From positions 62,001 through 126,000 of the forward strand of contig JACRBI010000038.1 of NCBI GenBank assembly GCA_016234495.1: a DNA stretch of 64,000 nt, in the 5' to 3' direction. A model generated the notes under the pieces. It was given only the letters and a program-made list of their open reading frames with translations. It made no database searches and was not told where the DNA came from. The first letter of the stretch is position 1. Every line of letters starts with the position of its first letter. This stretch comes from Chloroflexota bacterium. GTDB lineage: Bacteria; Chloroflexota; Anaerolineae; Anaerolineales; Villigracilaceae. Shown here piece after piece: positions 38,422 to 51,201 of this stretch. Position numbers and translations under genes: made by a program.

Positions 38422-38435
38422 GTTAAGAAAAAAAG

Positions 38436-38508
38436 TGCCCCAGCCAGGAGTCGAACCCGGAACCTACTGATCCGAAGTCAGGCGCTCTATCCATTGAGCT
38501 ACTGGGGC
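38436..38508 (-). tRNA. tRNA-Arg (anticodon TCG)
   Basis: The 73-base gene folds as a full cloverleaf: acceptor GCCCCAG/CTGGGGC, D stem GCTC/GAGC, anticodon loop CTTCGGA (anticodon TCG) with a mismatch at 27-43, T stem CCGGG/CCTGG and loop TTCGACT, discriminator A. CCA is not encoded. Bases 1-38 and 30 bp of 5' flank lie in the 68-bp direct repeat bounding the integrated element, so this gene is the rebuilt target at the element's left end. A TATAAT -10 box lies about 12 bases upstream of the tRNA 5' end, inside the repeat. Confidence 0.95.
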
Positions 38509-38538
38509 GTACCCGAAATTATACACGATTGCAAGCGG
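38471..38538. repeat. attL: 68-bp direct repeat, left copy
   Basis: It runs from base 38 of the tRNA (end of the anticodon loop) through the tRNA 5' end to 30 bp upstream, including the -10 box. It is identical to 48162-48229. Confidence 0.92.
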
Positions 38539-38595
38539 CTAGTACACGCGGGCATAATGCGAATAAAACGGCTATATATGGCGGTATGAAGGGAT

Positions 38596-39555
38596 GTGAA
38601 CCGCATGACGAAAACGGACTTGAATAAAATAATACAAAGTAGAGCGCCTGACTCTTTGTCACAGGATGTTTACTTACCTACACTTGCGGCGGCTTTTCTG
38701 CTTGACCGTAAAGCGCAAAACTTGACGAAGAAGACGCTAGACTTTTACCGCGTAAATTTAGAGACGGTTATAAGCTGGCTTGACACCCAAGCCGTGAAGA
38801 CTGTGACCGAATTGACGCCCGAAACGCTGCGGGCGTTTTTTATTGCCATGTCCGAACAAGGACACAAGGCGGGCGGCGTGCTTGCGTTTTATAGAACCGT
38901 GCGGGTCTTCCTGCGGTGGTATGCAATGGAATTTGAACCGCTTGAATGGCGCGATCCTTTGCGAAAGGTAAAACCGCCAAAGGTGGACATTGAACCGCTT
39001 GAACCCGTGTCCATGGATACGGTCCGCGCATTATTGGACACTTGCAAGCGGGGCAAATTCACAGGCGAACGGGACCGCGCTATTCTGTTATTCCTGCTTG
39101 ACGCTGGCGTTCGTGCGGGTGAACTGCTGGCTTTGGATCGTCAAGACACGGACATTCTCACGGGTGACGTTCTTATTCGTAAGTCAAAGTCACGCAAGCC
39201 GCGGACGGTGTTTATCGGGCGAACGGCACGGCGGGCGCTGCGGTCCTATCTGAAAATGCGTGAGGACATGGCGCGGGCTTTATTCGTCACGGATGAAGGC
39301 GAACGGCTGCGAATGGCTGGGCTTCGTCAAATTATGGTGAGACGATCAAGGCTGGCGGGCGTGCCTGTCCCGTCCTTGCATAGTTTTAGACGTGCCTTCG
39401 CTTTGACCATGAACCGCGCGGGTGTTGACCTGTTGACCATTGCGCGGCTGCTGGGGCATTCGGACCTGTCAATACTTGAAAGATATATCAAACACACGGG
39501 CGAAGACTTGCGCGGATCGCATGAACGCGGCTCACCTGTTGACGGTGTGCTGTGA
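38596..39555 (+). CDS. Tyrosine recombinase (integrase), left
   Basis: The 319-residue protein has an N-terminal SAM-like core-binding domain (LAAAFLLDRKAQNLTKKTLDFYRVNLETVISWL) and a C-terminal catalytic domain. The active-site set is present: Arg in DAGVRAGELLAL, a Lys in the beta hairpin (IRKSKSRKPRTVFI), H-x-x-R in LHSFRRAFALTM, His in LLGHSDLSI and the nucleophile Tyr in LERYIKHTGE. It lies 57 bp inside attL and is the likely integrase. The start is GTG at 38596 or ATG at 38605. Confidence 0.93.
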   Translation: MNRMTKTDLNKIIQSRAPDSLSQDVYLPTLAAAFLLDRKAQNLTKKTLDFYRVNLETVISWLDTQAVKTVTELTPETLRAFFIAMSEQGHKAGGVLAFYRTVRVFLRWYAMEFEPLEWRDPLRKVKPPKVDIEPLEPVSMDTVRALLDTCKRGKFTGERDRAILLFLLDAGVRAGELLALDRQDTDILTGDVLIRKSKSRKPRTVFIGRTARRALRSYLKMREDMARALFVTDEGERLRMAGLRQIMVRRSRLAGVPVPSLHSFRRAFALTMNRAGVDLLTIARLLGHSDLSILERYIKHTGEDLRGSHERGSPVDGVL

Positions 39556-39587
39556 GGATATTTTAAGCTTGAGGAAAATAAACGGGG

Positions 39588-39615
39588 TTGACTATTTAAA
39601 CGCTTATGCTATACT
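39588..39615 (+). promoter_or_regulatory. Promoter of the left element operon
   Basis: TTGACT (39588-39593) and TATACT (39610-39615) are separated by 16 bases, downstream of the integrase stop and upstream of the genes from 39727. Confidence 0.6.
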
Positions 39616-39658
39616 ACAGGCAAGAACAACAACTAAATAACCAAGTCCGACAGATACT

Positions 39659-39695
39659 AACGGGACACAAAGCCTCATGGCCTTTGTGTCCCGTT
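39659..39695 (+). promoter_or_regulatory. Strong leader hairpin (attenuator-like)
   Basis: A perfect 14-bp stem AACGGGACACAAAG / CTTTGTGTCCCGTT lies in the 5' leader between the promoter and the first gene of the left operon. It is not followed by a long T run, so it may be a partial terminator or an mRNA-protecting structure. Confidence 0.5.
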
Positions 39696-39726
39696 TCCGT
39701 TTAATTCGAATTTGAAAGGATGACCA

Positions 39727-39915
39727 ATGACCAATAAAAGACAGAACCCGCCCACGATTGCGATGCGTTTGAATGACGCCGATAAAAAAGCCTTGCGGAT
39801 CGTGGCGGCGAATATGGGCAAGTCGCAAACCGAGGCCGTGCGTGTCCTGGTACGCGAACGACTGGCATCATTCTCACTGGCTACCATGCCAAAGACCGCG
39901 AACATGAAGCGGTAA
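39727..39915 (+). CDS. Small ribbon-helix-helix-like protein
   Basis: The 62-residue protein reads TIAMRLNDADKKALRIVAANMGKSQTEAVRVLVRERL. This gives a beta strand with alternating residues followed by two helices, the pattern of CopG/Arc-type DNA-binding proteins. It is first in the left operon of the element and may regulate it or act as an accessory (excision or partition) factor. The ribosome binding site AAAGGA is good. Confidence 0.6.
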   Translation: MTNKRQNPPTIAMRLNDADKKALRIVAANMGKSQTEAVRVLVRERLASFSLATMPKTANMKR

Positions 39916-39966
39916 TTAAATGCAAAGTCCGCCTGGCCTGGCGGATTTTGCGGGAGAAAGGAACAA

Positions 39967-40434
39967 ATGGATAAACCGAATATAGCACGAAATGGCAGGA
40001 AACGCAAACATGAAATTTTGGGGACGCCGATTCGAGTCAGTGGGCGGATAGTTGGGCAGGTCATCCCGCCCAATTACGTCAAAGACATTACCAACCGCCA
40101 CATGCTGACAACTCCCCCAGCGATCGCAAATGACATCCAAGCCTTGACGGATGCGGAGCGGGCAGGCGCTATTTACTGTGTCTTCACGAACATTAACACG
40201 GGCATAGTTTACACGGCGTCCATTGCTGAAATATTCGAGCGGGGGCGGCATGTGAATTTTGGATATGGCGACCAGTACGCGCTAGGGCTAGGTCACTGGA
40301 CTCAATCTCAAGCCCCTGGGTATGCAACCCCGACAGAAGAACCAGAAGTAAAACCGCTGAAATATAAGAGCCGCGTCACGAAAGGCGCAGTGTTCAACGG
40401 CGTGCAGCTACCATTGTTCGGGGGGCGGCGATGA
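39967..40434 (+). CDS. Hypothetical element protein, 155 aa
   Basis: No family is recognised. The N-terminus is basic and short of hydrophobics (KPNIARNGRKRKHEILG). A beta-rich middle follows (AIYCVFTNINTGIVYTASIAEIF). It overlaps the next gene by 4 bp (ATGA), so it is coupled to the primase-like protein and may act with it. Confidence 0.55.
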   Translation: MDKPNIARNGRKRKHEILGTPIRVSGRIVGQVIPPNYVKDITNRHMLTTPPAIANDIQALTDAERAGAIYCVFTNINTGIVYTASIAEIFERGRHVNFGYGDQYALGLGHWTQSQAPGYATPTEEPEVKPLKYKSRVTKGAVFNGVQLPLFGGRR

Positions 40435-42146
40435 CTACAAATACTATCAATGCCCACGATATTACTGCGGAAGAATTTGAAATACAACGTCTTTTAGGAA
40501 GGCGCATAACTCCCGAAGTCATAGCTACTTTTCAAATCGAATCACGCTTAAACGGCTGGCAATATCCCACCCCTGGCGGGGGCTTACGCTGGAAAAACTT
40601 TGATAGTGGCGCGACTCCGAAATACCAATGGCTTGATGGTAAAAGCGAGAGTGCAGGATCGTTGTATTACGCTGATGACCTGAAAGACCAAATAGCCATG
40701 AGCGGTGGCGTTTGTTGGTATGTTTCAGGCGAACCCGATGTTTGGGCAATGCGAAGCGCATTAATTCCGCACGTTTTCAGCGGCTTTACTGAAAAGGTAA
40801 TTAACCCGAACTTTTCTGACTTCCTGCACAGTATGGGTGTAAAGCGTTTGTATATTGCCCCTGACTTGGACGAAACAGGCGCGGCGTTTGCCTGTAAAGT
40901 AGCAGCAGCTTTGCTTGGAACAGGGATCGAGCTAGACTGTCGGCAACTTCCTGCTGAACTTGGAGAACACGGCGATATTGGCAAGGCTTGGATAAAAGAC
41001 AATTCCCAAACCCCTTTTATCTACTATTTGCTTGGCTTGCCCCGATGGTATCCCGAACCTGAAAAGCCAAAGGTACAAACCCCGCTTGTTGTTTCAACTG
41101 GTGAATGGAGCGACATTCCCGCCGACTATCGCAAAAAAATAATGGATGCTTGCGGCGTGACCAAAATAAAGCCCGATGGTTTTTCAAATCTTGTGCTTTG
41201 TCGGATTCACAATGAAGAAAAACCATCCGCGCATTTTCACGAAACAAAGGGCTTGTATTGTTTCCACGAAATGAAATGGTACAAATGGATTGAAGTCGGC
41301 GCGGTATTGGGAATTGAACCATTCAAGCAGGAAAAGCCGACCGTCATTCTTGCAAGCCCACAACTGGCAGTAGAAGCGCAACGAGAACTTATCCGCTTGG
41401 GATTTACTGCCTTGTGTCGGCTTCTTGACGAACTATACCAGCAAGGCTTGGCAGGCGGCGAAGTGCTGACCGTGAAGGAAATAGACGCTACTTGTCCGAA
41501 CCTATCCCCCTGGACTATACGTCAAGCAGTAAAGCAAGCCAAAGGAAAAGGGTATTTTTTGAGGGAAATTCCCCCCTCAAATGCTGGAAGATATGGGGAG
41601 GGAAAAACCCTCAAAAAATCCGAAAAGAAAAAAAACAGCAAGTCGAAGGGAAGACCCGCAAAACGTATACAGGTACCTGACCTGACAAGGCTTTACGCTG
41701 CTCTGAACGTGCAGCCTGAAACGTGGCAAACGGACTTACCTGCATACAGTCGGCAAAACGCGGCTCAATATCGTGCTGAAGTCATGGCGGCAAAGATAAG
41801 ACACAAGGCGGGCGAATATTACATAAAGCAATTGACGAAGCCGATGGGTATTTCTCCAAAGACCCTACGAACTTACTGCAAGCGGGCGAACATCGAGGTC
41901 ACTCCCCGATTCGATAAGAGGTTAATGAGGACAGCGGATGACATTCAATCATTGCCAGAAGATGCTAGGGAACTGGCAGAATGGCGACGGGAAGGAAAAT
42001 TCAAAGGCGCGGTGTGGTTGGAAACGCTGGACGGAAAATATAAATTTGCGCCAACACAAGAAGGCGCGGCGAGGGCTGGGCGTGACGGACGGGCTTTCAG
42101 ACTGGTCAAGCAATTGGCCAATCATTACAAGGCAAGCAAGCCGTGA
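40431..42146 (+). CDS. Primase-like protein with Toprim followed by CHC2-type zinc finger
   Basis: The 571-residue protein has a Toprim-like region at about residues 75-175, with the acidic motif VSGEPDVWAM and the D-x-D motif YIAPDLDETG. A CHC2-like zinc finger follows at about 255-285: LCRIHNEEKPSAHFHE, then YCFHEMKW, with Cys/His ligands. In DnaG-type primases the zinc finger comes first, so the order is permuted here. The C-terminal part has two helix-turn-helix-like stretches (DATCPNLSPWTIRQAVKQA; LTKPMGISPKTLRTYCKRA) separated by a lysine/serine-rich linker. It probably primes or initiates replication of the element. No helicase motif is seen. Confidence 0.7.
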   Translation: MTTNTINAHDITAEEFEIQRLLGRRITPEVIATFQIESRLNGWQYPTPGGGLRWKNFDSGATPKYQWLDGKSESAGSLYYADDLKDQIAMSGGVCWYVSGEPDVWAMRSALIPHVFSGFTEKVINPNFSDFLHSMGVKRLYIAPDLDETGAAFACKVAAALLGTGIELDCRQLPAELGEHGDIGKAWIKDNSQTPFIYYLLGLPRWYPEPEKPKVQTPLVVSTGEWSDIPADYRKKIMDACGVTKIKPDGFSNLVLCRIHNEEKPSAHFHETKGLYCFHEMKWYKWIEVGAVLGIEPFKQEKPTVILASPQLAVEAQRELIRLGFTALCRLLDELYQQGLAGGEVLTVKEIDATCPNLSPWTIRQAVKQAKGKGYFLREIPPSNAGRYGEGKTLKKSEKKKNSKSKGRPAKRIQVPDLTRLYAALNVQPETWQTDLPAYSRQNAAQYRAEVMAAKIRHKAGEYYIKQLTKPMGISPKTLRTYCKRANIEVTPRFDKRLMRTADDIQSLPEDARELAEWRREGKFKGAVWLETLDGKYKFAPTQEGAARAGRDGRAFRLVKQLANHYKASKP

Positions 42147-42294
42147 ATTTGTTACGGTGTCTATCGTCTCGAGTTGTTATTGGCAGTCTCACGGAAAGAG
42201 AACGAGAACTCTTATTCTCGAACACGATAAAAGGCAGAAAAAGAAGGTTACAGCGGACGCGGTTTCGCTGACTGAAATAAACAGGAGATAAGTT

Positions 42295-42831
42295 ATGAAC
42301 GTACTCAAAGAACTGGAAAAGGTAAATGCAAAGATAGCCGAGGTCGAGAAGCGGCGCGAAGATGTGAAGAAGGCGCAACGGATTGCACGGCTGGCGATCG
42401 AGGAACGAGCCGCGGAGTTGGGCGCTCAACTGTTGAACGGTGATGCCTACGCCGAAAGTATCAAGTTTCTTTCAGGCGAACGGGTGCGGCTTGAAGGGCT
42501 GGAAGTAGCCGAAAAGCACGCAGCCGCGACACTTGCAGAACTAGAAGCAGAGCGCAACAGCCACGTCAGAACGCTGGCGATCGAAGCGTACGAGAAAGAG
42601 GTAGCCGAAGCGAGAAAGAAACTTCTCACTGCTGCAGCAGCGCTGTTTGACGTGTCTTCGGCATTGGCAAGTATCCGCCTTGTCCCGCCTGCTGGTTACG
42701 TTTCAGACGGCGGGGAATTGGTGCGCAACTTCTGGTTTCACCTCCGCGACTTGGGTATCACTGGCAAGCTCTCAGACCTTGAGCCGCGCTTTCCTGAATT
42801 CATGAGCCAGGCAAGAAAGGCGGCGAAATGA
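42295..42831 (+). CDS. Coiled-coil protein
   Basis: The 178-residue protein is almost wholly predicted coiled coil over residues 1-120 (KELEKVNAKIAEVEKRREDVKKAQ; RLEGLEVAEKHAAATLAELEAERN). No enzymatic motif is seen. It lies in the left operon and overlaps the next gene by 4 bp. Confidence 0.6.
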   Translation: MNVLKELEKVNAKIAEVEKRREDVKKAQRIARLAIEERAAELGAQLLNGDAYAESIKFLSGERVRLEGLEVAEKHAAATLAELEAERNSHVRTLAIEAYEKEVAEARKKLLTAAAALFDVSSALASIRLVPPAGYVSDGGELVRNFWFHLRDLGITGKLSDLEPRFPEFMSQARKAAK

Positions 42832-43214
42832 CAGACGAAACCTACACATCACAAGAAGTTGTGAAAACGGTAAGCGCCGCAATACAAAGCGTCTTTGACG
42901 CCGAGGGTGCATCCCTGCCCGATGAAAGCGAACCAGACCATAAAGACTTTCAAGCCGCCTTGCTTGAAGGGGTGCAGGATGGAAACATAAACATCGAGCA
43001 CATACTTGCAACGGCGCGAAAAGTGGCGAAGAATCGAGCCGCAATTCAGGAAGCCCGCAAGGAAGAAGAACGCAAAGCAACGGGCAGGACGTTGCTTCAA
43101 TGGGCACATGGCGAAAGACCAAAGACCCAATTGACAACCGCGAACGCCCAGCAGGATACCACACGCGGCAGGACATTTCTTGAACGCGCTCATAAAAACA
43201 ACGGAGGTAAATAA
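42828..43214 (+). CDS. Hypothetical element protein, 128 aa
   Basis: The protein is acidic in the first half (FDAEGASLPDESEPDHKD) and basic and helical in the second (RKVAKNRAAIQEARKEEERKATG). Q-W-A-H-G-E-R and F-L-E-R-A-H repeats appear near the end (TLLQWAHGERP; TFLERAHKN). No family is recognised. Confidence 0.5.
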   Translation: MTDETYTSQEVVKTVSAAIQSVFDAEGASLPDESEPDHKDFQAALLEGVQDGNINIEHILATARKVAKNRAAIQEARKEEERKATGRTLLQWAHGERPKTQLTTANAQQDTTRGRTFLERAHKNNGGK

Positions 43215-43215
43215 A

Positions 43216-44034
43216 ATGCCAAGTGATGCTGAATGGGAAGGACTGCCCGCGCCGAAGTGGAACAACCCGCCGAAGCCGCCCAAGCCGCCGAGACCACAGA
43301 GAACAAAGAATGGGCATGTACAAGAACAGCCACAAGTTGGATTCTCACTGCCCGCTTGGAGCATGGATATTCCCGAAAATGTCAATCTTCCTGGCGGCAT
43401 TGAGGTTATGACGCCAGGCGGCTCTGTCGGTGTGCCTGCTACCAATGTTTCTTTTCCTGTCCCTCGATGGGCTAATCGCGGCTTGAAAATTTTGAAAGGC
43501 GCATTGAACCAACCGACAATCGGCAGCGAGTTATGGGATAACAGGAACATGCCGATTTACACTCCGCATTTTGGAGTGAGCGCAAGCGGTTTCGGTTTCA
43601 GCATTCCATCGTACCAACTGAATCCATTTGCCAACCCCGACAAGACGAGCATCGGCACGAATGTATCTAATAAACATGTAGGCGCAACAAACATACCTAC
43701 CAGGTGGGTGAGAACGGCGGACGGGTATCAGGCGATCCCCTGGCAGCCTGGGATGTTGACGGGCACATTCTTTAGCGGGGGGAATGCGGCGCTGAACCCG
43801 CCGAGTGGCGAAGACTACTCGTGGACGGGAAACACCCGAAATGCGAATAACGATTACGCGCTTGTGACTCCTCCGCCGACTACTACTACAACGGGTGGCG
43901 GTGGTGGTGCAGGTGGTGGATACACAGGCGGCGGTTATCGAGGCGGTGGCGGTGGGGGCGGAGGTGGAGGCGGATATAACCAGCGTGTTCCATCGTGGCT
44001 AGTCAACCTTTATAACTGGGACTTCAAAGGATAA
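43216..44034 (+). CDS. Proline- and glycine-rich element protein
   Basis: The 272-residue protein has an N-terminal proline-rich run (WNNPPKPPKPPRP), a low-complexity middle with little charge, and a glycine-rich tail with two glycine stretches (TTTTTGGGGGAGGGYTGGG; a run of about 11 glycines) before VPSWLVNLYNWDFKG. The start is ATG 43216 behind a strong GGAGG site; an upstream frame to 43180 has none. The composition is that of a structural or surface polypeptide. Its last base is the first base of the next gene's start codon. Confidence 0.6.
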   Translation: MPSDAEWEGLPAPKWNNPPKPPKPPRPQRTKNGHVQEQPQVGFSLPAWSMDIPENVNLPGGIEVMTPGGSVGVPATNVSFPVPRWANRGLKILKGALNQPTIGSELWDNRNMPIYTPHFGVSASGFGFSIPSYQLNPFANPDKTSIGTNVSNKHVGATNIPTRWVRTADGYQAIPWQPGMLTGTFFSGGNAALNPPSGEDYSWTGNTRNANNDYALVTPPPTTTTTGGGGGAGGGYTGGGYRGGGGGGGGGGGYNQRVPSWLVNLYNWDFKG

Positions 44035-44444
44035 TGCCTATGCCTGCTATCACGGACAATTTCAAGAACAAGAAGAAAGCCAATAAGACCACCTGGCGCA
44101 AAGGTATGCCTTCGCCCAATCCTGCTGGCCGCTCGAAGGAAGGGCAAAGCTGGAAAAGCATCATTGCCGATGTTTCAAACATGAAGGGTAAGGATATCCT
44201 TTCCCTTGTGGGCAGGTCTAGCGAATTGGGAAGGGCGTTTCTGAAACTCCCGCAAGACGTGCAGGTGAAATATCTCGTTGTTGCGCGGGTTATTTCTGTT
44301 CTTGCAACCGAACCTAACGCGGGGCTGTTCAATGCGCTAATGGACAGGGCGGAGGGGAAGGTAGCCGAAAGAGTCCAAATTGACGGCGGTCTTGAAGTGG
44401 ACGGGCTTTCTGAAATGTTGGAGAAAGTGTACGGGAAGCAATAG
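44034..44444 (+). CDS. DUF5681-type protein
   Basis: The 136-residue protein has the DUF5681 signature near its start: TWRKGMPSPNPAGRSKEGQSW, matching the usual W-x-x-G-x-S-x-N-P-x-G-R pattern. The rest is helical. The family is of unknown function and is common in phage-like and integrated elements, often near terminase genes. It is the last gene of the left operon and is followed by a terminator. Confidence 0.75.
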   Translation: MPMPAITDNFKNKKKANKTTWRKGMPSPNPAGRSKEGQSWKSIIADVSNMKGKDILSLVGRSSELGRAFLKLPQDVQVKYLVVARVISVLATEPNAGLFNALMDRAEGKVAERVQIDGGLEVDGLSEMLEKVYGKQ

Positions 44445-44472
44445 CCGCATTAACACGGATCCGCGCAAAACA

Positions 44473-44501
44473 AAAACGCCCTGAATATTTCGGGGCGTTT
44501 T
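44473..44501. terminator. Bidirectional terminator between left operon and repressor
   Basis: The 9-bp stem AAAACGCCC / GGGCGTTTT with T- and A-rich ends separates the DUF5681 gene from the convergent repressor gene. Confidence 0.8.
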
Positions 44502-44515
44502 GCTTGGTACAGGAG

Positions 44516-44779
44516 CTATTTTTTTTTCGGCTTCTTTGGGGCGGGCGTTTCGTCAGGGACGTACTCAAATAACTCGCCTGGCTTGATGCCGAAGTATTTG
44601 CACAAGGCATTAATAACGGGAACGTCAAAACGATTCACGCTGTTATTTTCCCACTTGTAGAGAGACTGCCTTGAAACATTGGTTGCCTCGGCAACTTCTT
44701 GAAGTGAAATGTTGCGGCGTTCTTTTATACGCTTTTCAGCAAGCAAGGCGGCGAAACGATTGTTTACTGTCACATTCAT
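44516..44779 (-). CDS. XRE-family transcriptional regulator (element repressor)
   Basis: The 87-residue protein has a Cro/C1-type helix-turn-helix: ISLQEVAEATNVSRQSLYKWENNSVNRFDVPVINALCKYFGI. It ends in a lysine-rich tail. The start ATG at 44779 is preceded by GGAG; a longer frame to 44899 lies in the regulatory region. It is the only minus-strand gene of the element. Its promoter overlaps a cluster of four operator-like repeats and faces a rightward promoter, as in phage lysogeny switches. Confidence 0.88.
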   Translation of the reverse strand: MNVTVNNRFAALLAEKRIKERRNISLQEVAEATNVSRQSLYKWENNSVNRFDVPVINALCKYFGIKPGELFEYVPDETPAPKKPKKK

Positions 44780-44790
44780 AATTTTACTCC

Positions 44791-44879
44791 ATGTAGCACT
44801 AGAATAACATGCTTGACGATTTGTTGCACTAGGTTTACAATTGTCATTATACTTTGTAGTACAACAATTGTAATACAAA
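44791..44879. promoter_or_regulatory. Divergent control region with four operator copies
   Basis: Four copies of a TTGT-W-R-Y-AC-W-A motif lie at 44791-44802, 44821-44832, 44854-44865 and 44868-44879. A rightward promoter (TTGACG at 44813-44818, TACAAT at 44836-44841, spacer 17) overlaps copy 2. A leftward promoter for the repressor (TTACAA from 44873 to 44868, TATAAT from 44851 to 44846, spacer 16) overlaps copies 3 and 4. Confidence 0.6.
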
Positions 44880-44899
44880 AGCAACAAGGACATTAACAA

Positions 44900-45094
44900 A
44901 TTTATAACCGTTTACCGTGAACCGCGTGACATAAAGCGCGGCGGTGGTAACGCGGAGAGGGATTAGCGCGGGGGCGGGCTGGCGCAAGGGGCGCATAAAA
45001 AGCAATGACCGCCGAACTGTGGAAGCAATTCGGCGGCATGTGTCACTACTTGAACGGAGGTGACATGGTTATTTTACTTCAAAGAAGGTGACGA
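44900..45094 (+). promoter_or_regulatory. Leader of the right operon with hairpin and micro-ORF
   Basis: The region carries a stem CCGCCGAA / TTCGGCGG (about 45009-45036) and an 8-codon ORF (45065-45091, MVILLQRR, preceded by GGAGG) ending 3 bp before the next start. No larger gene is seen. Confidence 0.35.
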
Positions 45095-45427
45095 ATGGCA
45101 AAGAAAGTAAACGTGTTGTTTTTACTGCTTGGTTTGGTGGCTGGACTCTACATGACGGCTACCGCAAAGGGCGACCGCGTTGAAGAAGTACCAACGAACA
45201 CGGCACAGACGGCGCGGATCGCAACCGCTGAAACCTGCAAAGTTTATACAGGCGTTGACGCTGGGACTGTGAACCTGCGAAGCTGTGCGGGGACTTCTTG
45301 CGGCGTCCTGGACATAGTGACCGAAGGCGACCGCTTGACGATTATCACGGCGGGCGCTTGGGCGAACGTCACAACTGAAGACGGCGTGACGGGCTGGATA
45401 AATTCGATTTACTGCAAAGGAAAATAA
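45095..45427 (+). CDS. Secreted bacterial SH3-domain protein
   Basis: The 110-residue protein has an N-terminal signal or anchor segment (VNVLFLLLGLVAGLYMTATA). An SH3b domain follows (GTVNLRSCAGTSCGVLDIVTEGDRL; WANVTTEDGVTGWINSIYC). Such domains bind peptidoglycan or proteins outside the cell. It is first in the right operon of the element, behind AGAAGG. Three or four cysteines could form disulfides. Confidence 0.75.
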   Translation: MAKKVNVLFLLLGLVAGLYMTATAKGDRVEEVPTNTAQTARIATAETCKVYTGVDAGTVNLRSCAGTSCGVLDIVTEGDRLTIITAGAWANVTTEDGVTGWINSIYCKGK

Positions 45428-45430
45428 ACC

Positions 45431-45664
45431 ATGAACATTTCTAAAACGCAAGAGGAATACGAAGCATTCCTAGCGCGGAGCCTTCCGAAAATCAAGAGCG
45501 AAACGGGGCGCAAGATGGTGGAGTACACAAGCCTTGTGCTTGAAAACTTGCCAGAGACAGTCAGTATATTTGATGCACTGATAAAGGACGGGCACAAGCA
45601 GGAAGTCATAAGCCTTATGGGCATTTTGGGAACTTTGCTAGAGGAAAGGACGAATGAGCCATGA
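45431..45664 (+). CDS. Small hypothetical protein, 77 aa
   Basis: The helical, soluble 77-residue protein (TQEEYEAFLARSLPKIKSETG; VLENLPETVSIFDALIKDG) overlaps the next gene by 4 bp and starts 4 bp after the SH3 protein gene. No family is recognised. Confidence 0.5.
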   Translation: MNISKTQEEYEAFLARSLPKIKSETGRKMVEYTSLVLENLPETVSIFDALIKDGHKQEVISLMGILGTLLEERTNEP

Positions 45665-46443
45665 CCAAGAAAATCGGTCTTTTACTTGTGACCATTCTGG
45701 GCGGTGCGCTGCTTGTGTATTCCGCGACTCGAAGCCTGGACTTTATTTCGTTGACCTTACCCGCTGACCGTCAAGTCCTTGCATACTTCGGGCTTGCCGC
45801 GCTTGACGGCGGGCTTGTGGCCTGGCTGTTATCTTACCTGTACGGATCTCGGGGAAGCTGGCAACGTGCGATAAGTATTCTGATGGTGCTTGTTGACGTG
45901 GCGGGAGCTATTGCGATGTTCACCCTGGACACACTGTACAACACTGGTAAGGCAGGCATGACCAAAGCCATGACCCCCGAAGCGATAACAAACGCGGTGC
46001 TTGCGCTATCAGGCATTATCGCGCTGAATATTTTTGCAACCATAGCACACCATATAACCGACCCTGACAAACTGCGTGAACAAGCCGAAGAAGAAGCCTT
46101 CGCAAAAGTTGAAGATGCGACATTGAAACAAATTTCAAGGAACGCGGACGGCTTGGCGGCACAACTAGCGCCTATTATGGCGGCGGACTGGCAGGCGCAA
46201 ACACACGCGCGGTATATGTCCTATGTCGGCACGGGCAAACTTCCTGCTATTGACGCGACCGCGCAAGATGTGCAACCGCTGGCCATTGTGCAACCGCAAA
46301 CGCGGCAGGAAAAGAAATTCGATCTTGCCGCGATATGGGCTGGCCTGTTTGGCGCGAAGGCAGACGAAAGCGTCATGCCCATTATGAGCGAAGTCAAGCC
46401 AACCGAAGACGGCAAGTCTTTTACAGACGCGCCGAACCAATAG
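45661..46443 (+). CDS. Four-helix membrane protein
   Basis: The 260-residue protein has four membrane segments in its first 135 residues (LLLVTILGGALLVYSA; YFGLAALDGGLVAWLLSYLYG; ISILMVLVDVAGAIAMFTLD; AVLALSGIIALNIFATIAHH). A cytoplasmic tail of about 120 residues follows, with acidic and glutamine-rich stretches. No family is recognised. Its end overlaps the next frame by about 109 bp. Confidence 0.6.
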   Translation: MTKKIGLLLVTILGGALLVYSATRSLDFISLTLPADRQVLAYFGLAALDGGLVAWLLSYLYGSRGSWQRAISILMVLVDVAGAIAMFTLDTLYNTGKAGMTKAMTPEAITNAVLALSGIIALNIFATIAHHITDPDKLREQAEEEAFAKVEDATLKQISRNADGLAAQLAPIMAADWQAQTHARYMSYVGTGKLPAIDATAQDVQPLAIVQPQTRQEKKFDLAAIWAGLFGAKADESVMPIMSEVKPTEDGKSFTDAPNQ

Positions 46444-46718
46444 CGGCGCGAACCTGTGCGCGGTGCGGAAATTTTTACGATGGTGCTTTACATGGGCGTT
46501 ACTGTGGGAACTCATGCAAACAAAAAGCATACCGTGAACGCAAGCAATACAAGCAAAGCACTCCTGTGAACGGGAACGCCCGAACGTCAAACGAATTGCG
46601 AACCTGTGCGCGTTGTGGTGTGCAATTTGAAGGCGTATTGCACGGGCGGTATTGTTCGGGGGCGTGCAGGCAGGCGGCATACAGGGAACGCAAAGCACGA
46701 AAGGCGGTGACGATATGA
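46335..46718 (+). CDS. Tandem Cys-rich (zinc-finger-like) protein
   Basis: The 127-residue frame contains two copies of R-T-C-A-R-C-G-x-x-F-x-G-x-L-H-G-R-Y-C-x-x-x-C-x-Q-x-A-Y-R-E-R-K, about 50 residues apart, each with a C-x-x-C and a Y-C-x3-C pair that could bind zinc. The listed start (46335) lies deep in the previous gene. A start near 46440 (ATA overlapping the previous TAG) would remove the basic, unconserved first 35 residues, but it lacks a standard start codon. The true start is undecided. Confidence 0.55.
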   Translation: MGWPVWREGRRKRHAHYERSQANRRRQVFYRRAEPIAARTCARCGNFYDGALHGRYCGNSCKQKAYRERKQYKQSTPVNGNARTSNELRTCARCGVQFEGVLHGRYCSGACRQAAYRERKARKAVTI

Positions 46719-46939
46719 CCGAAGACACGGTGACGACTTTTTTTATAGGCCGAAACTTCAAAGCCTGGGTGGCTGTTCAAAACGGCATTGTGCTTGACGT
46801 TGATATCGTTGAATACAAACTTACTCCCGCCGAACGTCACGAAGTCATATGCCGATACAGGCAGGCGAACCGTAAAAAGATGAGCAAACAAAGCCGCCTG
46901 CTTTTTCGCGGCGCTGAACTGCTTGAAGGCGAACCTTAA
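46715..46939 (+). CDS. Small hypothetical protein, 74 aa
   Basis: The protein starts MTEDTVTTFFIGRNFKAWVAVQNG at an ATGA overlap with the Cys-rich gene and ends in a basic tail (ERHEVICRYRQANRKKM). No family is recognised. It is the last gene of the right operon before the second recombinase. Confidence 0.5.
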   Translation: MTEDTVTTFFIGRNFKAWVAVQNGIVLDVDIVEYKLTPAERHEVICRYRQANRKKMSKQSRLLFRGAELLEGEP

Positions 46940-47020
46940 AAAAACTAGCTTGTTTTGAATTTGGGTGATGGAAAACGACACAGACGGGCGGCGCGAGTCC
47001 CTACGGGCTTCCTGTTGCGA

Positions 47021-47053
47021 TTTAGGGCATGTCTAGCAAGGACATGCCCTAAA
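47021..47053. promoter_or_regulatory. Perfect 13-bp hairpin between right operon and second recombinase
   Basis: TTTAGGGCATGTC and GACATGCCCTAAA are perfect complements with a 7-base loop. No T run follows, so it may be a terminator of weak type or a protein-binding dyad controlling the recombinase gene. Confidence 0.5.
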
Positions 47054-47117
47054 TTCCCTCCTGTTATTGGGTGCGAGAATAAACCTTCTAAAGACTAAAA
47101 CGAAAGGATAAAACAAC

Positions 47118-48068
47118 ATGAACAAATTGACTGTAACCAACAAAAATGATGTTAGCCGCATTGACCAAAACGCGGCGGCAATATATTTAACTTCGCTGAA
47201 CAGTGAAGCAGGTCGGCGAACCATGCGGCAAGCGTTGAACTTATGCGCGGGTTTGTTATCCAGTGATGCAAACGCCTTAACCTTTGCGTGGCATGAAGTC
47301 CGCTTTCAGCATATGACCGCACTCCGAACCCGCTTGACCGAGGTTTATAAACCTGCAACGGTAAACAAAATGCTTGCGGCGTTGCGTGGTGTTTTGAAGT
47401 CGGCCTGGCTATCGGGGCAAATGAATGCCGAGGATTTCCACAAAGCCGCGAGTGTCAAAAGCGTCAAAGGCGAATCGTTACCCGCTGGGCGCGAATTGAC
47501 GAGCGGCGAAATAACCGCGCTGATGTCTGACTGTGAAGCAGACATAACGAACGCGGGCGCAAGGGATGCGGCCATCATTGGGCTGATGTATTCTTGCGGC
47601 TTACGGCGTGAAGAAGTTGTGACGCTCGACCTGGCGGACTATGACGCCGAGGGGCGGCTCGTTGTGCGCGGCAAGGGCAACAAGGAACGAACCGCCTGGC
47701 TGACAGACGGCGCGGCTCGCGCTGTGGCTGACTGGCTGACCGTTCGCGGCGCTAATCCTGGCGCGTTGTTTGTGGCTGTCAATAAGTCGGGGCGAATTAT
47801 GAACTACAAGAACATGACGCCGAAGACCATTTACTCCATGCTTGCGAAGCGTGCGACTGAAGCGGGCGTTAAGTCCTTCAGCCCTCACGATATGCGCAGA
47901 ACCTTTGTAAGTGACTTGCTTGACGCAGGCGCGGATATTACGACCGTTTCAAAAATGGCGGGACATGCAAACGTCACAACAACGGCACGCTACGATCGAA
48001 GACCCGAAGAAGCAAAGCGCAAGGCAGCAAGCCTGTTGCACGTGCCTTACATGGGGCGCGGTGCGTAA
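47118..48068 (+). CDS. Tyrosine recombinase, right
   Basis: The 316-residue protein has a core-binding domain (AAIYLTSLNSEAGRRTMRQALN; TEVYKPATVNKMLAALRGVLKSA) and a catalytic domain. The domain has Arg in YSCGLRREEVVTLDL, Lys in GKGNKERTAWL, H-x-x-R in SPHDMRRTFVSDLL, His in MAGHANVTTT and Tyr in ARYDRRPEE. It differs from the left recombinase and is not a duplicate. It lies 93 bp inside attR. It could act in excision, resolve dimers or invert DNA. Confidence 0.92.
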   Translation: MNKLTVTNKNDVSRIDQNAAAIYLTSLNSEAGRRTMRQALNLCAGLLSSDANALTFAWHEVRFQHMTALRTRLTEVYKPATVNKMLAALRGVLKSAWLSGQMNAEDFHKAASVKSVKGESLPAGRELTSGEITALMSDCEADITNAGARDAAIIGLMYSCGLRREEVVTLDLADYDAEGRLVVRGKGNKERTAWLTDGAARAVADWLTVRGANPGALFVAVNKSGRIMNYKNMTPKTIYSMLAKRATEAGVKSFSPHDMRRTFVSDLLDAGADITTVSKMAGHANVTTTARYDRRPEEAKRKAASLLHVPYMGRGA

Positions 48069-48078
48069 AAATAGAACG

Positions 48079-48099
48079 GCGGACTCTTGAAAAGTCCGC
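48079..48099 (+). terminator. Hairpin after the right recombinase
   Basis: The 7-bp stem GCGGACT / AGTCCGC lies 11 bp after the recombinase stop codon and is followed by TTGT. Confidence 0.5.
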
Positions 48100-48161
48100 T
48101 TGTATCAACTCAAAATATAAAGCTATATATAGTGCTGGGGCGTGCTTTTGAACTCGCCTTT

Positions 48162-48229
48162 TCCGAAGTCAGGCGCTCTATCCATTGAGCTACTGGGGCG
48201 TACCCGAAATTATACACGATTGCAAGCGG
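48162..48229. repeat. attR: 68-bp direct repeat, right copy
   Basis: It is identical to 38471-38538. It holds the first 38 bases of the tRNA-Arg on the minus strand plus 30 bp of upstream sequence, but not the 3' half, so it is a truncated tRNA copy and marks the right end of the element. Confidence 0.92.
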
Positions 48230-48561: not shown

Positions 48562-48690
48562 ATGAAGAAAATATTTGACATTGTATTTACTCGCGAAAAC
48601 CTGCTGGCAATTCTGCTTTGCTTGATCCTGATTGCGATTGTTATTTTTACTGCAGACACATCGCCAACCTGGATATATCAGGGGTTTTGA
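48562..48690 (+). CDS. DltX-like membrane microprotein (candidate acyl carrier of the MBOAT system)
   Basis: An ATG at 48562 opens a 42-codon frame reading MKKIFDIVFTRENLLAILL, then a hydrophobic stretch (about residues 14-34), then TADTSPTWIYQGF. The TGA overlaps the MBOAT ATG (TGATG), so the genes are coupled. The layout is a positive N-terminus, one membrane helix and an outward C-terminal hexapeptide W-I-Y-Q-G-F with a central Tyr. It matches DltX, whose C-terminal F-x-Y-x-x-F-type hexapeptide carries the acyl group from DltB to DltD on its Tyr. Homology is inferred from this layout and motif only. Confidence 0.7.
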   Translation: MKKIFDIVFTRENLLAILLCLILIAIVIFTADTSPTWIYQGF

Positions 48691-50102
48691 TGTCGATATT
48701 ACAGCTTGCCATTCTTACAATTTTTGCCGTCATCATTGGCCAATGGAAAAAGGCGCGGTTGCTGGGATTACTTGGCACCAGTGCTTTTGTTCTTTATTGG
48801 TTACAACCGCCTCAAGCAATGGTAAATATGACTTTCTGGTTTCCGACAGCGACGCTGGCTGTGACTGTGCTTGCGTGGTCGCTCACTGCTTCCGCCGAAG
48901 CGCGCAGCTGGAAGCGGAATTGGCAGGCGGCATTGGTGTTAACTGGCGTTATCCTTCTTGTGGATATGAATCGTTATTTCCAAATCGAACAGGTCTTTAT
49001 AACGATGACTCCAAGGCTGCAATGGGCAGCCGCGGCAGTTGCGATTGTTGCAGCCCTTGTTTTATTGATGCCGCTTTTGGGGAAATTTCAGCATCTTTAC
49101 TATGCAATTGCAGCAAGCGGCCTGGTTGCCTTGCTGGCTCTTATCAAAACACCGTCAGCTTTGGAGAGGCTCATTGGTGTGGTATCAACCCTCAGGGGGA
49201 ATGAGGCGATGGAATTGGTTCCGCTTTCATGGCTGGGTTTTTCGTACGTCTCCTTCCGTTTGTTGCATACCATACTGGACCGAAAAGCAGGACGTTTTCC
49301 CTCTGTCCCGTTGGCAGAGTACGTCAATTATGTGATTTTCTTTCCGTCATTTACGGCAGGACCAATCGACCGTTTTGAGCATTTTTCCAATGAATTGAAC
49401 TCGCCTGCATTGCTGGATCGCCAGGGCTGGATGGATGCGGGGGAGCGCATCTTTGCCGGTATGTTCAAAAAATTTGTGCTTGCTGATGCGCTGGCATGGA
49501 TTGCCCTAAATGATGAGTTTGCCCGGCAATTGCAAACTTCAGGATGGATGTGGATGTTCCTGTATGCGTATTCCCTGCGGATATTTTTTGACTTCAGCGG
49601 TTATACCGATATCGCAATTGGGCTTGGGAGATTAATGGGTGTGCGGCTGCCGGAAAACTTTGCTGCTCCTTATCTTAAGCCCAACCTGACCCAATTTTGG
49701 AATTCATGGCACATGACCTTGACCCAGTGGTTCCGCGCATATTATTTCAACCCGCTGACACGCGCCATCCGCTCTTCAAAGCTCCCTTTGCCGCAACCGT
49801 TGATTGTTTTTGTGGCTCAAGTCAGCACCATGGTTTTGATCGGTTTATGGCATGGAGTGAGCGCGAGTTTTTTGCTTTGGGGTTTATGGCACGGGATTGG
49901 ATTATTTATTCAGAACCGCTGGAGTGATTTTGCGCAGACACGCATGTCCGCTCTCGCCCAGTTTGGGGTTGGTCAATCAGTTGTTAAATATGCAGGCATA
50001 TTTGTGACTTTTAATTTTGTTTCACTCGGTTGGCTATTTTTTATTCTGCCGACACCTGCGCTGGCGTGGCAGGCGGCATTAAAATTGTTCGGAATTGCAT
50101 AA
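48690..50102 (+). CDS. MBOAT-family O-acyltransferase
   Basis: The 470-residue protein has about 11-12 membrane segments and the MBOAT core. It contains YVNYVIFFPSFTAGPIDRFEHF, then YSLRIFFDFSGYTDIAIGLGRLMG, then FWNSWHMTLTQWFRAYYFNPL with a conserved His, and LIGLWHGVSASFLLWGLWHG with the invariant His. This is the AlgI/DltB/PatA type, which moves acyl groups from a cytoplasmic donor to the outside. The start is set at 48690 because of the overlap with the microprotein; a frame to 48618 is not supported. Its own C-terminus lacks the Tyr hexapeptide found on the microprotein. Confidence 0.92.
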   Translation: MSILQLAILTIFAVIIGQWKKARLLGLLGTSAFVLYWLQPPQAMVNMTFWFPTATLAVTVLAWSLTASAEARSWKRNWQAALVLTGVILLVDMNRYFQIEQVFITMTPRLQWAAAAVAIVAALVLLMPLLGKFQHLYYAIAASGLVALLALIKTPSALERLIGVVSTLRGNEAMELVPLSWLGFSYVSFRLLHTILDRKAGRFPSVPLAEYVNYVIFFPSFTAGPIDRFEHFSNELNSPALLDRQGWMDAGERIFAGMFKKFVLADALAWIALNDEFARQLQTSGWMWMFLYAYSLRIFFDFSGYTDIAIGLGRLMGVRLPENFAAPYLKPNLTQFWNSWHMTLTQWFRAYYFNPLTRAIRSSKLPLPQPLIVFVAQVSTMVLIGLWHGVSASFLLWGLWHGIGLFIQNRWSDFAQTRMSALAQFGVGQSVVKYAGIFVTFNFVSLGWLFFILPTPALAWQAALKLFGIA

Positions 50103-50103
50103 A

Positions 50104-51201
50104 ATGGACGTCCATCCCCTTCGAATTCTTATAAAAGCCTTATTCCTGTTTGTGGCTTTAAATATTATTTATGCTTTAATTGACCCGCCCATCTCTCAAG
50201 TATCGGCATATAACACTATTTTCCCCGGGCGGGTGCGTATGCCCTTCGGGAACGATGTCGACCCTTTTGCGGTGATGGTTGACGATGTGGATGTGATGTT
50301 CGCTTCGCATTCTGTCTCTCACAAAAAGACAACCAAAGAATATCGAGTCGTGCTGATTGGAGATTCGTCCATCTGGGGCGAAAACCTTGCTGCTCATGAG
50401 TCGATTTCAGTACTGTGGAATGCGAAAGACATTCAGTGCGGAGACAGGTCTGTAAAAATTTATAATCTTGCCTACCCACACCCGTCCGTCATAAAGGATT
50501 TGGTTATTCTCGATAAGGCTATGGAGTATGACCCTGACCTTGTCGTTTGGTTTGTAACTCTGAACACCCTGATTCCCCGTCGTTTAAGTCCTTTCCTGGC
50601 AGCCAATCATGAACGGGCTGTGCGCGTTCTGGATACTTATGATATTCCCTTCGTGCAGGAAGATGCGCTGTTAGCCAGCGAAACCACTTTTTTTCAAAAA
50701 ACATTGGTTGGCCAAAGGTCGCTCCTTGCCCGCCTGATAAAACTTCAAGCGCTCGGGGTGGTTTGGGCTGCAACTAGCGCAGACATGAAAACTCCGCTTG
50801 CAAGCGGCTCTGTGTTGTCGCCGGATATTGATGGCGATGACCGGTATCGCGGAATGAAGCCGGCGCCCGATTTAAATAAAATGATGCTTTTTGACGCAAT
50901 CAAGGCAGGGCACGATATCGCAGGCTCAACCCCCATAATCATTTTTAATGAACCGATGTTTATAGCAGATGGAGTGAATAAAGATATCCGCTATAATGAC
51001 TTCTACCCCCGCTGGGCGTATGACCAATTCCGCGAGTCTCTTCATGCCGCAGCTCTTACCTCCCAGTGGAATTACCTGGATTTATGGAATGCAATTCCTT
51101 CAGAATATTTTTCAGATACCCCCTTGCATCTCTCTGCTCAAGGCGAGCAGCTGCTGATTGAAGAAATTGATCCGGTTCTAAATTCATTTGCATGCAACTA
51201 A
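50104..51201 (+). CDS. SGNH-like (DltD/AlgX-type) acyltransferase partner
   Basis: The 365-residue protein has one N-terminal membrane segment (LIKALFLFVALNIIYALID) and an outward domain with SGNH blocks: nucleophile Ser in VVLIGDSSIWGENL, YNLAYPHPS (block II), and the catalytic D-x-x-H in FSDTPLHLSAQGEQLL. Such proteins complete the transfer of acyl groups from the MBOAT system to an envelope polymer. It starts 1 bp after the MBOAT stop. The substrate is probably the exopolysaccharide of the neighbouring locus (inference). Confidence 0.82.
   Translation: MDVHPLRILIKALFLFVALNIIYALIDPPISQVSAYNTIFPGRVRMPFGNDVDPFAVMVDDVDVMFASHSVSHKKTTKEYRVVLIGDSSIWGENLAAHESISVLWNAKDIQCGDRSVKIYNLAYPHPSVIKDLVILDKAMEYDPDLVVWFVTLNTLIPRRLSPFLAANHERAVRVLDTYDIPFVQEDALLASETTFFQKTLVGQRSLLARLIKLQALGVVWAATSADMKTPLASGSVLSPDIDGDDRYRGMKPAPDLNKMMLFDAIKAGHDIAGSTPIIIFNEPMFIADGVNKDIRYNDFYPRWAYDQFRESLHAAALTSQWNYLDLWNAIPSEYFSDTPLHLSAQGEQLLIEEIDPVLNSFACN

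Follow-up and report, generated by a model that had tools for sequence, protein, structure and literature searches.

Our study concerned three adjoining genes in a 64,000-nucleotide stretch of DNA from an Anaerolineae genome (Chloroflexota bacterium, family Villigracilaceae; assembly GCA_016234495.1, contig JACRBI010000038.1, positions 62,001 to 126,000 of the forward strand), which was analysed at its full length and is referred to here as the window. The genes encode a DltX-like microprotein, a membrane-bound O-acyltransferase (MBOAT) and a protein of SGNH fold (Table 1). The open reading frame (ORF) of the microprotein runs from an ATG at 48562 to a TGA at 48688–48690 and translates as MKKIFDIVFTRENLLAILLCLILIAIVIFTADTSPTWIYQGF. 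It contains a single hydrophobic stretch, read from the sequence as a helix, and the residues K2, K3 and R11 lie ahead of this stretch, so that an N-in/C-out topology is expected. The stop codon overlaps the ATG of the MBOAT gene at 48690 within the sequence TGATG, and the ATG of the SGNH gene follows 1 bp past the MBOAT stop; the frame, the overlap and the positions of both downstream genes had been given in the original prediction and are confirmed here from the sequence.

Table 1. Features of the window discussed in the text (positions are those of the window)
Feature	Position	Strand	Evidence
DltX-like microprotein of 42 aa ending in W-I-Y-Q-G-F, with a single membrane helix	48562..48690	+	ORF, conservation, pN/pS
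Codons of the WIYQGF hexapeptide; Tyr39 = 48676-48678	48670..48687	+	Tyr at -4 in 96/96 readable tails
DltB-like MBOAT (470 aa) with no shuttle motif at its C-terminus; invariant His341 and His388	48690..50102	+	PF03062, DltB model, structure
SGNH-fold protein, 365 aa, DltD-like by fold; Ser88, Asp326 and His342 invariant	50104..51201	+	Foldseek, conserved residues
Integrated mobile element, separate from the shuttle system	38471..48229	.	68-bp perfect direct repeat, tRNA-Arg, recombinases

Both the 42-codon frame and its Y-x-x-F end were found to be conserved in related genomes, so that the original prediction withstood the refuting condition set out with it. The MBOAT was searched for in 152 genomes of the window's family, 119 of which gave matches (E up to 1e-30). 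Those listed with a score of more than 300 bits, 111 in 94 genomes, were taken as the homologous loci and were all fetched; the listing ran on to far lower scores. A profile search found the microprotein upstream of the MBOAT (same strand, no more than 2.5 kb away) in 102 of these loci, including one, L121, whose tail is hidden by a run of N; it was absent from five, and four were cut by a contig end or gapped. Because the 27 copies behind the profile had been selected for their tail, this count and that of the tails given below lean towards similar tails. A second set of 80 loci, taken from named assemblies and largely overlapping the 111, held the microprotein in 76 cases (including L247, with a gapped tail) and lacked it in four. 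Tyr was present at position -4 in all 96 readable distinct C-termini, the 97th being unreadable because of a scaffold gap, and the last residue was Phe in 94 and Tyr in two. Variants around the invariant Tyr included WIYLGF, WIYQNF, WIYQGY and FLYEGF, whereas position -7 was free to vary. By analogy with DltX and PatA, Tyr39 is the predicted acyl-carrying residue.

The ratio of non-synonymous to synonymous polymorphism (pN/pS) was 0.12–0.27 across four distance bins, based upon 111 unique 32-codon tails, a set that excludes tails without aromatic-x-Y-x-x-[FY]. Diversity at codon positions 1, 2 and 3 was 0.31, 0.18 and 0.56, respectively, the third position being the most variable, and by these measures the microprotein is under purifying selection. 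Among 7445 ORFs of 25–80 aa in 60 loci, an end of the form [FWY]xYxx[FWY] other than WIYQGF was seen in only four, all of them variant microproteins. A spurious ORF is ruled out by the conservation of the microprotein and its pN/pS, and the 42-codon frame is a conserved protein-coding gene.

Among 400 Chloroflexota genomes, 34 gave strong matches to the microprotein (E up to 2e-13), all from the window's class and spread over six families; in 13 of the 47 matching genomes there were weak matches alone (19–22 bits), which were taken to be chance, all but one lying in much longer frames. A search of the PDB with the microprotein profile returned nothing relevant. When the window microprotein was compared with a plasmid collection, the sole match, at E 8, was the copy on a plasmid of Leptolinea sp. 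HRD-7 (L198:8757-10356), where microprotein and MBOAT are each annotated 'hypothetical protein'; no SGNH, ACP (acyl carrier protein) or FAAL (fatty acyl-AMP ligase) match was found in the 19 kb of this plasmid that were examined. Further observations concern the arrangement of the gene. One short contig (L094 / L220) holds prfB, a microprotein, an SGNH-like gene, a second microprotein and an MBOAT in tandem, the shuttle gene being duplicated. Microprotein-like WIYQGF frames with no downstream MBOAT found occur at L189:1556-1672, where the match crosses a stop codon, and at L196:1201-1317. At L256, L277, L282 and L286, a split-type MBOAT (as defined below) and an SGNH gene are present with no microprotein detected. 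In many loci a short lipoprotein-like gene, similar by reading, lies 5' of the microprotein or MBOAT (L035:11106-11486; L136, L142, L146, L149).

The window MBOAT scored 61.3 bits against Pfam PF03062 and 220.6 bits against the DltB model TIGR04091, short of the cut-off of 375. Its AlphaFold2 (AF2) model, with a mean predicted local distance difference test (pLDDT) score of 90.5, was found to match DltB best (6bug, Z 29.8 over 377 residues), the next matches being DltB 8jem (Z 29.6) and then PORCN (24.4). His341 and His388 were kept in all 60 aligned MBOATs. The protein ends in KLFGIA and has no Tyr hexapeptide, and we call such MBOATs split-type, as opposed to fused-type MBOATs, which bear the motif on their own C-terminus. 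Among 191 split-type frames, of which six were cut and two had N near the end, none of the 183 that were complete and readable (116 distinct) had an aromatic/aliphatic-x-Y-x-x-[FY] end, and an overlooked fused motif is thereby ruled out. The fetched loci also contained nine distinct fused-type MBOAT genes (10 rows), each with a Y-x-x-F end and without a microprotein upstream; L045_2106 and L176, which end in NLYAKF, count as fused, and row L166 was left out because it represents only part of a frameshifted split-type gene. MBOAT matches of 300 bits or less were likewise left out of the locus count, and those among them whose C-termini were read, such as L001, L002 and L045, end in the fused motif. 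One of these weaker matches, G143:C284, possibly represents part of a split-type gene. The window genome itself holds two fused-type MBOATs (L001, ending in FVYFKF, and L002, ending in FLYVQF) alongside two of the split type.

Phylogenetic inference was based upon a small sample of 55 MBOATs (every third row of alignment A4, with two DltB sequences and 18 fused MBOATs, nine of the latter taken from Anaerolineae loci and nine from other organisms) and was rooted by midpoint only. The 35 split-type rows formed one group (support 100/100) adjoining the two DltB, and a branch with support of 99/97 separated these 37 from the 18 fused MBOATs. Tyr stood at -4 in all 18 rows of the fused side and the motif in none of the two DltB and 35 split-type rows. 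Judged from these sequences, the Tyr motif is divided between the MBOAT tail in the fused type and the microprotein tail in the split type.

The third protein has one N-terminal helix (residues 5–26 in the AF2 model). It scored 14.6 bits against Pfam Lipase_GDSL_2, under the cut-off of 32.9, and the SGNH label is taken from the fold search. The top Foldseek matches of the AF2 model (pLDDT 91.9) were the DltD structures 3bma, 7dxm and 6pfx (E 3.8e-6, template-modelling score about 0.4), and a second structure comparison gave DltD a Z of 14.5 over 272 residues, level with TesA and CgnD. There was no match to PF04914 (DltD) in the window protein, the S. aureus DltD control scoring 345 bits; any resemblance to DltD lies in the fold alone. 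Ser88 (within GDS), Asp326 and His342 were present in all 57 aligned SGNH sequences. The D-x-x-H motif originally read in this protein was off by one: the window has D338-T-P-L-H342 (D-x-x-x-H), and among the 57 sequences Asn occupies position 338 in 41 and Asp in no more than 12, the window being one of the 12. Where 1.2 kb or more had been fetched downstream of the MBOAT (101 loci), an SGNH gene was seen there in 93.

A fuller version of this gene set was found on contig C34 of the same genome, where a microprotein of 38 aa ending in SPTWIYQGF, an MBOAT, an SGNH protein, a second SGNH-like lipoprotein, an ACP and an AMP-forming ligase lie in one direction. The best model for the ligase was NF006624 (FAAL) with 348 bits, below its cut-off of 600, followed by PRK07768, a long-chain-fatty-acid-CoA ligase, with 339 bits, no listed model being over its cut-off; among PDB entries the ligase matched 3kxw and 3pbk best, and 3pbk carries the label fatty acyl-adenylate ligase. 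By best family match, the ligase is FAAL-like rather than an acyl-CoA or D-alanine ligase. Downstream sequence of 5 kb or more had been fetched for 83 loci, FAAL being present in 55 of them and ACP in 56. The cassette FAAL was found in 88 of the 94 genomes with a split-type MBOAT, compared to 24 of the 58 others (Fisher p 1.3e-12, uncorrected for kinship), and one of the six MBOAT genomes counted as FAAL-less, G010, has the gene split over two contigs. Only two carrier-protein matches were seen in the window genome, each in a short frame: that on C34 and one on C18, which is presumably the ACP of fatty-acid synthase. Near the C34 cassette, at L035:3885-4599, there are fragments with 73–78% identity to a part of the FAAL, remnants of a duplicated ligase.

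The original prediction placed a separate DltX-like microprotein, with a motif-less MBOAT and an SGNH protein, outside the D-alanine pathway, and our results agree. The best DltA match (TIGR01734) in the window genome, which is 98% complete, reached 89.3 bits against a cut-off of 559.85. The C34 ACP scored 17.8 bits on the dltC model TIGR01688 (cut-off 52.35), with other ACP models better and none over its cut-off. No match to the Pfam DltX family (PF12459) was found in the window, C34 or Leptolinea microproteins, the S. aureus and Listeria controls scoring 53 and 56 bits; the microprotein does have the DltX family traits of one helix and a C-terminal Tyr hexapeptide. FAAL and ACP in the related cassettes, combined with the lack of a DltA over the cut-off, point to a Dlt-like, non-D-alanine cassette with a shuttle microprotein of its own.

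The primary paper on the DltX shuttle is reportedly that of Schultz et al. (2023). Acyl transfer to a Tyr is described as demonstrated for PatA and reported for DltX in the 2025 PatAB paper (PMC12148441). We put at roughly two in three the probability that the microprotein serves as the tyrosine acyl-shuttle subunit in an envelope acylation machine that resembles Dlt but does not transfer D-alanine, and that the window copy is fed from C34. The shuttle mechanism is applied here because of the invariant Tyr, the exchange of the motif between fused and separate forms and the position on the DltB branch. In such a machine, the FAAL would activate a carboxylic acid and load it onto the phosphopantetheine of its dedicated ACP, and the DltB-like MBOAT (His388) would pass the acyl group on to Tyr39, the C-terminus of the microprotein being expected to face outside. 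The tail of the microprotein would then hand the acyl group to Ser88 of the DltD-like SGNH protein, which would esterify a hydroxyl of a surface polymer or glycolipid. The window copy, without ACP and FAAL genes of its own, would draw on those of contig C34. More tentatively, we suggest a class-wide, previously undescribed pathway in which a Tyr microprotein ferries fatty or other non-amino acyl groups over the membrane from a dedicated acyl-ACP, a surface polymer being lipidated thereby, and in which accessory microprotein-MBOAT-SGNH modules such as that of the window share a single ACP/ligase pair in trans; we would not yet favour this extension over its negation.

Several results weigh against the shuttle reading. 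An hhalign comparison of the microprotein with DltX (three DltX rows) gave a probability of 3.2, only the last seven residues being common. With no profile likeness beyond these residues and no Pfam DltX match, no claim of homology is made: the microprotein would work like DltX, and common descent is not claimed. An Asp three residues before the His is usual in SGNH enzymes, and that residue is not Asp in 54 of the 57 SGNH sequences, the window included. Five loci (L136, L142, L144, L148 and L149) have no detectable microprotein though their MBOAT is without the motif; three of these genomes hold a copy at another locus, which might be shared with the microprotein-less one, and the other two have none in the listed matches. 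Nine FAAL loci were drawn from the 24 genomes with FAAL and no split-type MBOAT. One of them (L176:4453-8917) brings together ACP, a fused-motif MBOAT ending in NLYAKF and a cassette-type FAAL, a fused counterpart with the same donor genes; in seven (L177–L183) the ACP and FAAL genes persist by themselves, the fetched DNA holding neither an MBOAT nor a microprotein, and those of L177, L178 and L181 adjoin prfB; and one (L184) is cut. The donor genes are thus not bound to the microprotein alone, and a strict rule that a separate microprotein means a carrier-protein donor is ruled out. The five loci without a microprotein would also suit a structural or regulatory MBOAT subunit that carries no acyl group and whose conserved tail merely docks the SGNH protein, and conservation alone does not tell docking from chemistry. 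We nevertheless hold this to be improbable, as the Tyr motif is split between MBOAT tail and microprotein tail in the two types, all 96 readable tails keep the Tyr while -7 is free, and the equivalent Tyr is acylated in PatA according to PMC12148441. Ordinary Dlt D-alanylation, with dltA and dltC elsewhere in the genome, would fit the 220.6 bits of the MBOAT on the DltB model, its structural match and the DltD-like SGNH fold, but is ruled out for practical purposes by the DltA, DltC, DltX and DltD model scores: the best DltA match reaches 89 of 560 bits, the ligase of the cassette is FAAL-like, its ACP is far below the DltC cut-off (17.8 of 52 bits), and Pfam DltX and DltD matches are absent.

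The same shuttle might instead take another donor, namely acetyl-CoA, another acyl-CoA or the acyl-AcpP of fatty-acid synthesis, in which case the window copy and other orphans would be PatAB-like O-acetyltransferases with a separate motif. No cassette ACP or FAAL match was found within the 64-kb window. The claim that no carrier lies nearby therefore stands for the window, whereas ACP and FAAL proved to be usual in related cassettes and are present on C34. Feeding from C34 is further called into question by the window's nearest relatives by identity, L210 (61%) and L211 (60%), which lie outside the tree and are likewise orphans, and by genomes G018 and G009, which keep microprotein, MBOAT and SGNH with no cassette FAAL anywhere. 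Other MBOAT/SGNH pathways are stated to use acyl-CoA in PMC12148441. We nonetheless consider a different donor unlikely, if well within the range of serious alternatives, since the window MBOAT clusters in the tree with five prfB-linked relatives (L212, L215, L221, L224 and L238), each with ACP and FAAL, since it falls on the DltB side and DltB, according to that paper, receives its donor from a carrier protein, and since the window genome keeps a full cassette. The genomes of L210 and L211 (G138 and G149) also hold a second, full cassette (L104 and L044). Overall, 25 of the 28 loci without a local FAAL are in genomes with a cassette FAAL elsewhere (26 counting G010); this is only modestly higher than the base rate of 112 in 152 genomes, so the count lends little weight to supply in trans. 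On balance, the window copy is an orphan that probably draws acyl-ACP in trans, most likely from the ACP and FAAL of C34.

Upstream of the microprotein lies an integrated mobile element of 9.7 kb, bounded by 68-bp perfect direct repeats at 38471-38538 and 48162-48229, with a tRNA-Arg(TCG) gene at 38435-38508 at the repeat and two genes for phage-integrase-family recombinases (38596-39555 and 47118-48068). Six of the nine other element genes that were scanned had no Pfam match at E 0.001, and the element looks complete. It separates the microprotein from an upstream glycosyltransferase cluster; by arithmetic, without the element the microprotein would start about 670 bp past a glycosyltransferase gene that closes a run of glycosyltransferase, methyltransferase, epimerase and sulfotransferase genes. 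This proximity, the element being discounted, makes a polysaccharide acceptor plausible for the window copy. The locus had been predicted to be an exopolysaccharide locus, and while the adjoining glycosyltransferase/sulfotransferase cluster speaks for this once the 9.7-kb element is set aside, 25 of the 111 relatives, the window's tree kin among them, adjoin prfB, and this part of the prediction thus holds only weakly.

One of the closest known systems is DltX-DltB-DltD with DltA and DltC (D-alanylation of teichoic acid), with which the cassette shares a separate one-helix microprotein ending in aromatic-x-Tyr-x-x-Phe, a DltB-branch MBOAT without a fused motif, an SGNH partner and, in the full cassette, a carrier and an AMP-forming ligase. 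It differs in that the ligase is FAAL-like and not DltA, the ACP is not DltC by model score, the microprotein lies outside Pfam DltX and the SGNH protein has no DltD sequence match, as well as in its gene order (microprotein, MBOAT, SGNH, an optional second SGNH, ACP, FAAL) and its Anaerolineae hosts. PatA/PatB and other fused O-acetyltransferases share the MBOAT, the SGNH partner and the Tyr hexapeptide as predicted carrier; here, in contrast, a separate protein bears the hexapeptide, and a carrier protein is encoded in the full cassette. A locus of the actinobacterium Nonomuraea (L201:4758-9604) has a fused MBOAT ending in FLYYRY, then a 76-aa probable carrier and a 1011-aa protein resembling part of a non-ribosomal peptide synthetase (labels by eye); it shares the MBOAT and the probable carrier link, but differs in the fused motif.

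The 2025 PatAB paper (PMC12148441) describes MBOAT/SGNH pathways other than Dlt as being without a carrier and without a DltX-like microprotein, and the Anaerolineae cassette appears to be an exception to this statement, as carrier and microprotein are found together in most of its copies, along with another kind of ligase. In a cross-phylum scan, the best 80 of 430 relatives all belonged to Chloroflexi/Chloroflexota or Anaerolineae groups (one being 'Candidatus Aquidulcis'). Literature combining Anaerolineae with MBOAT, FAAL with MBOAT, or ACP with MBOAT and SGNH was not found in the open-access collection searched, and on the basis of these searches we claim the cassette as undescribed so far.

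In summary, these results suggest a likely role for a short and easily overlooked gene, as illustrated by its annotation in the Leptolinea record, and offer a testable handle on surface acylation in the Anaerolineae. If the proposed shuttle is true, a separate shuttle protein would not be peculiar to D-alanylation, and the whole DltB branch of MBOATs may be a split-shuttle, carrier-fed branch.

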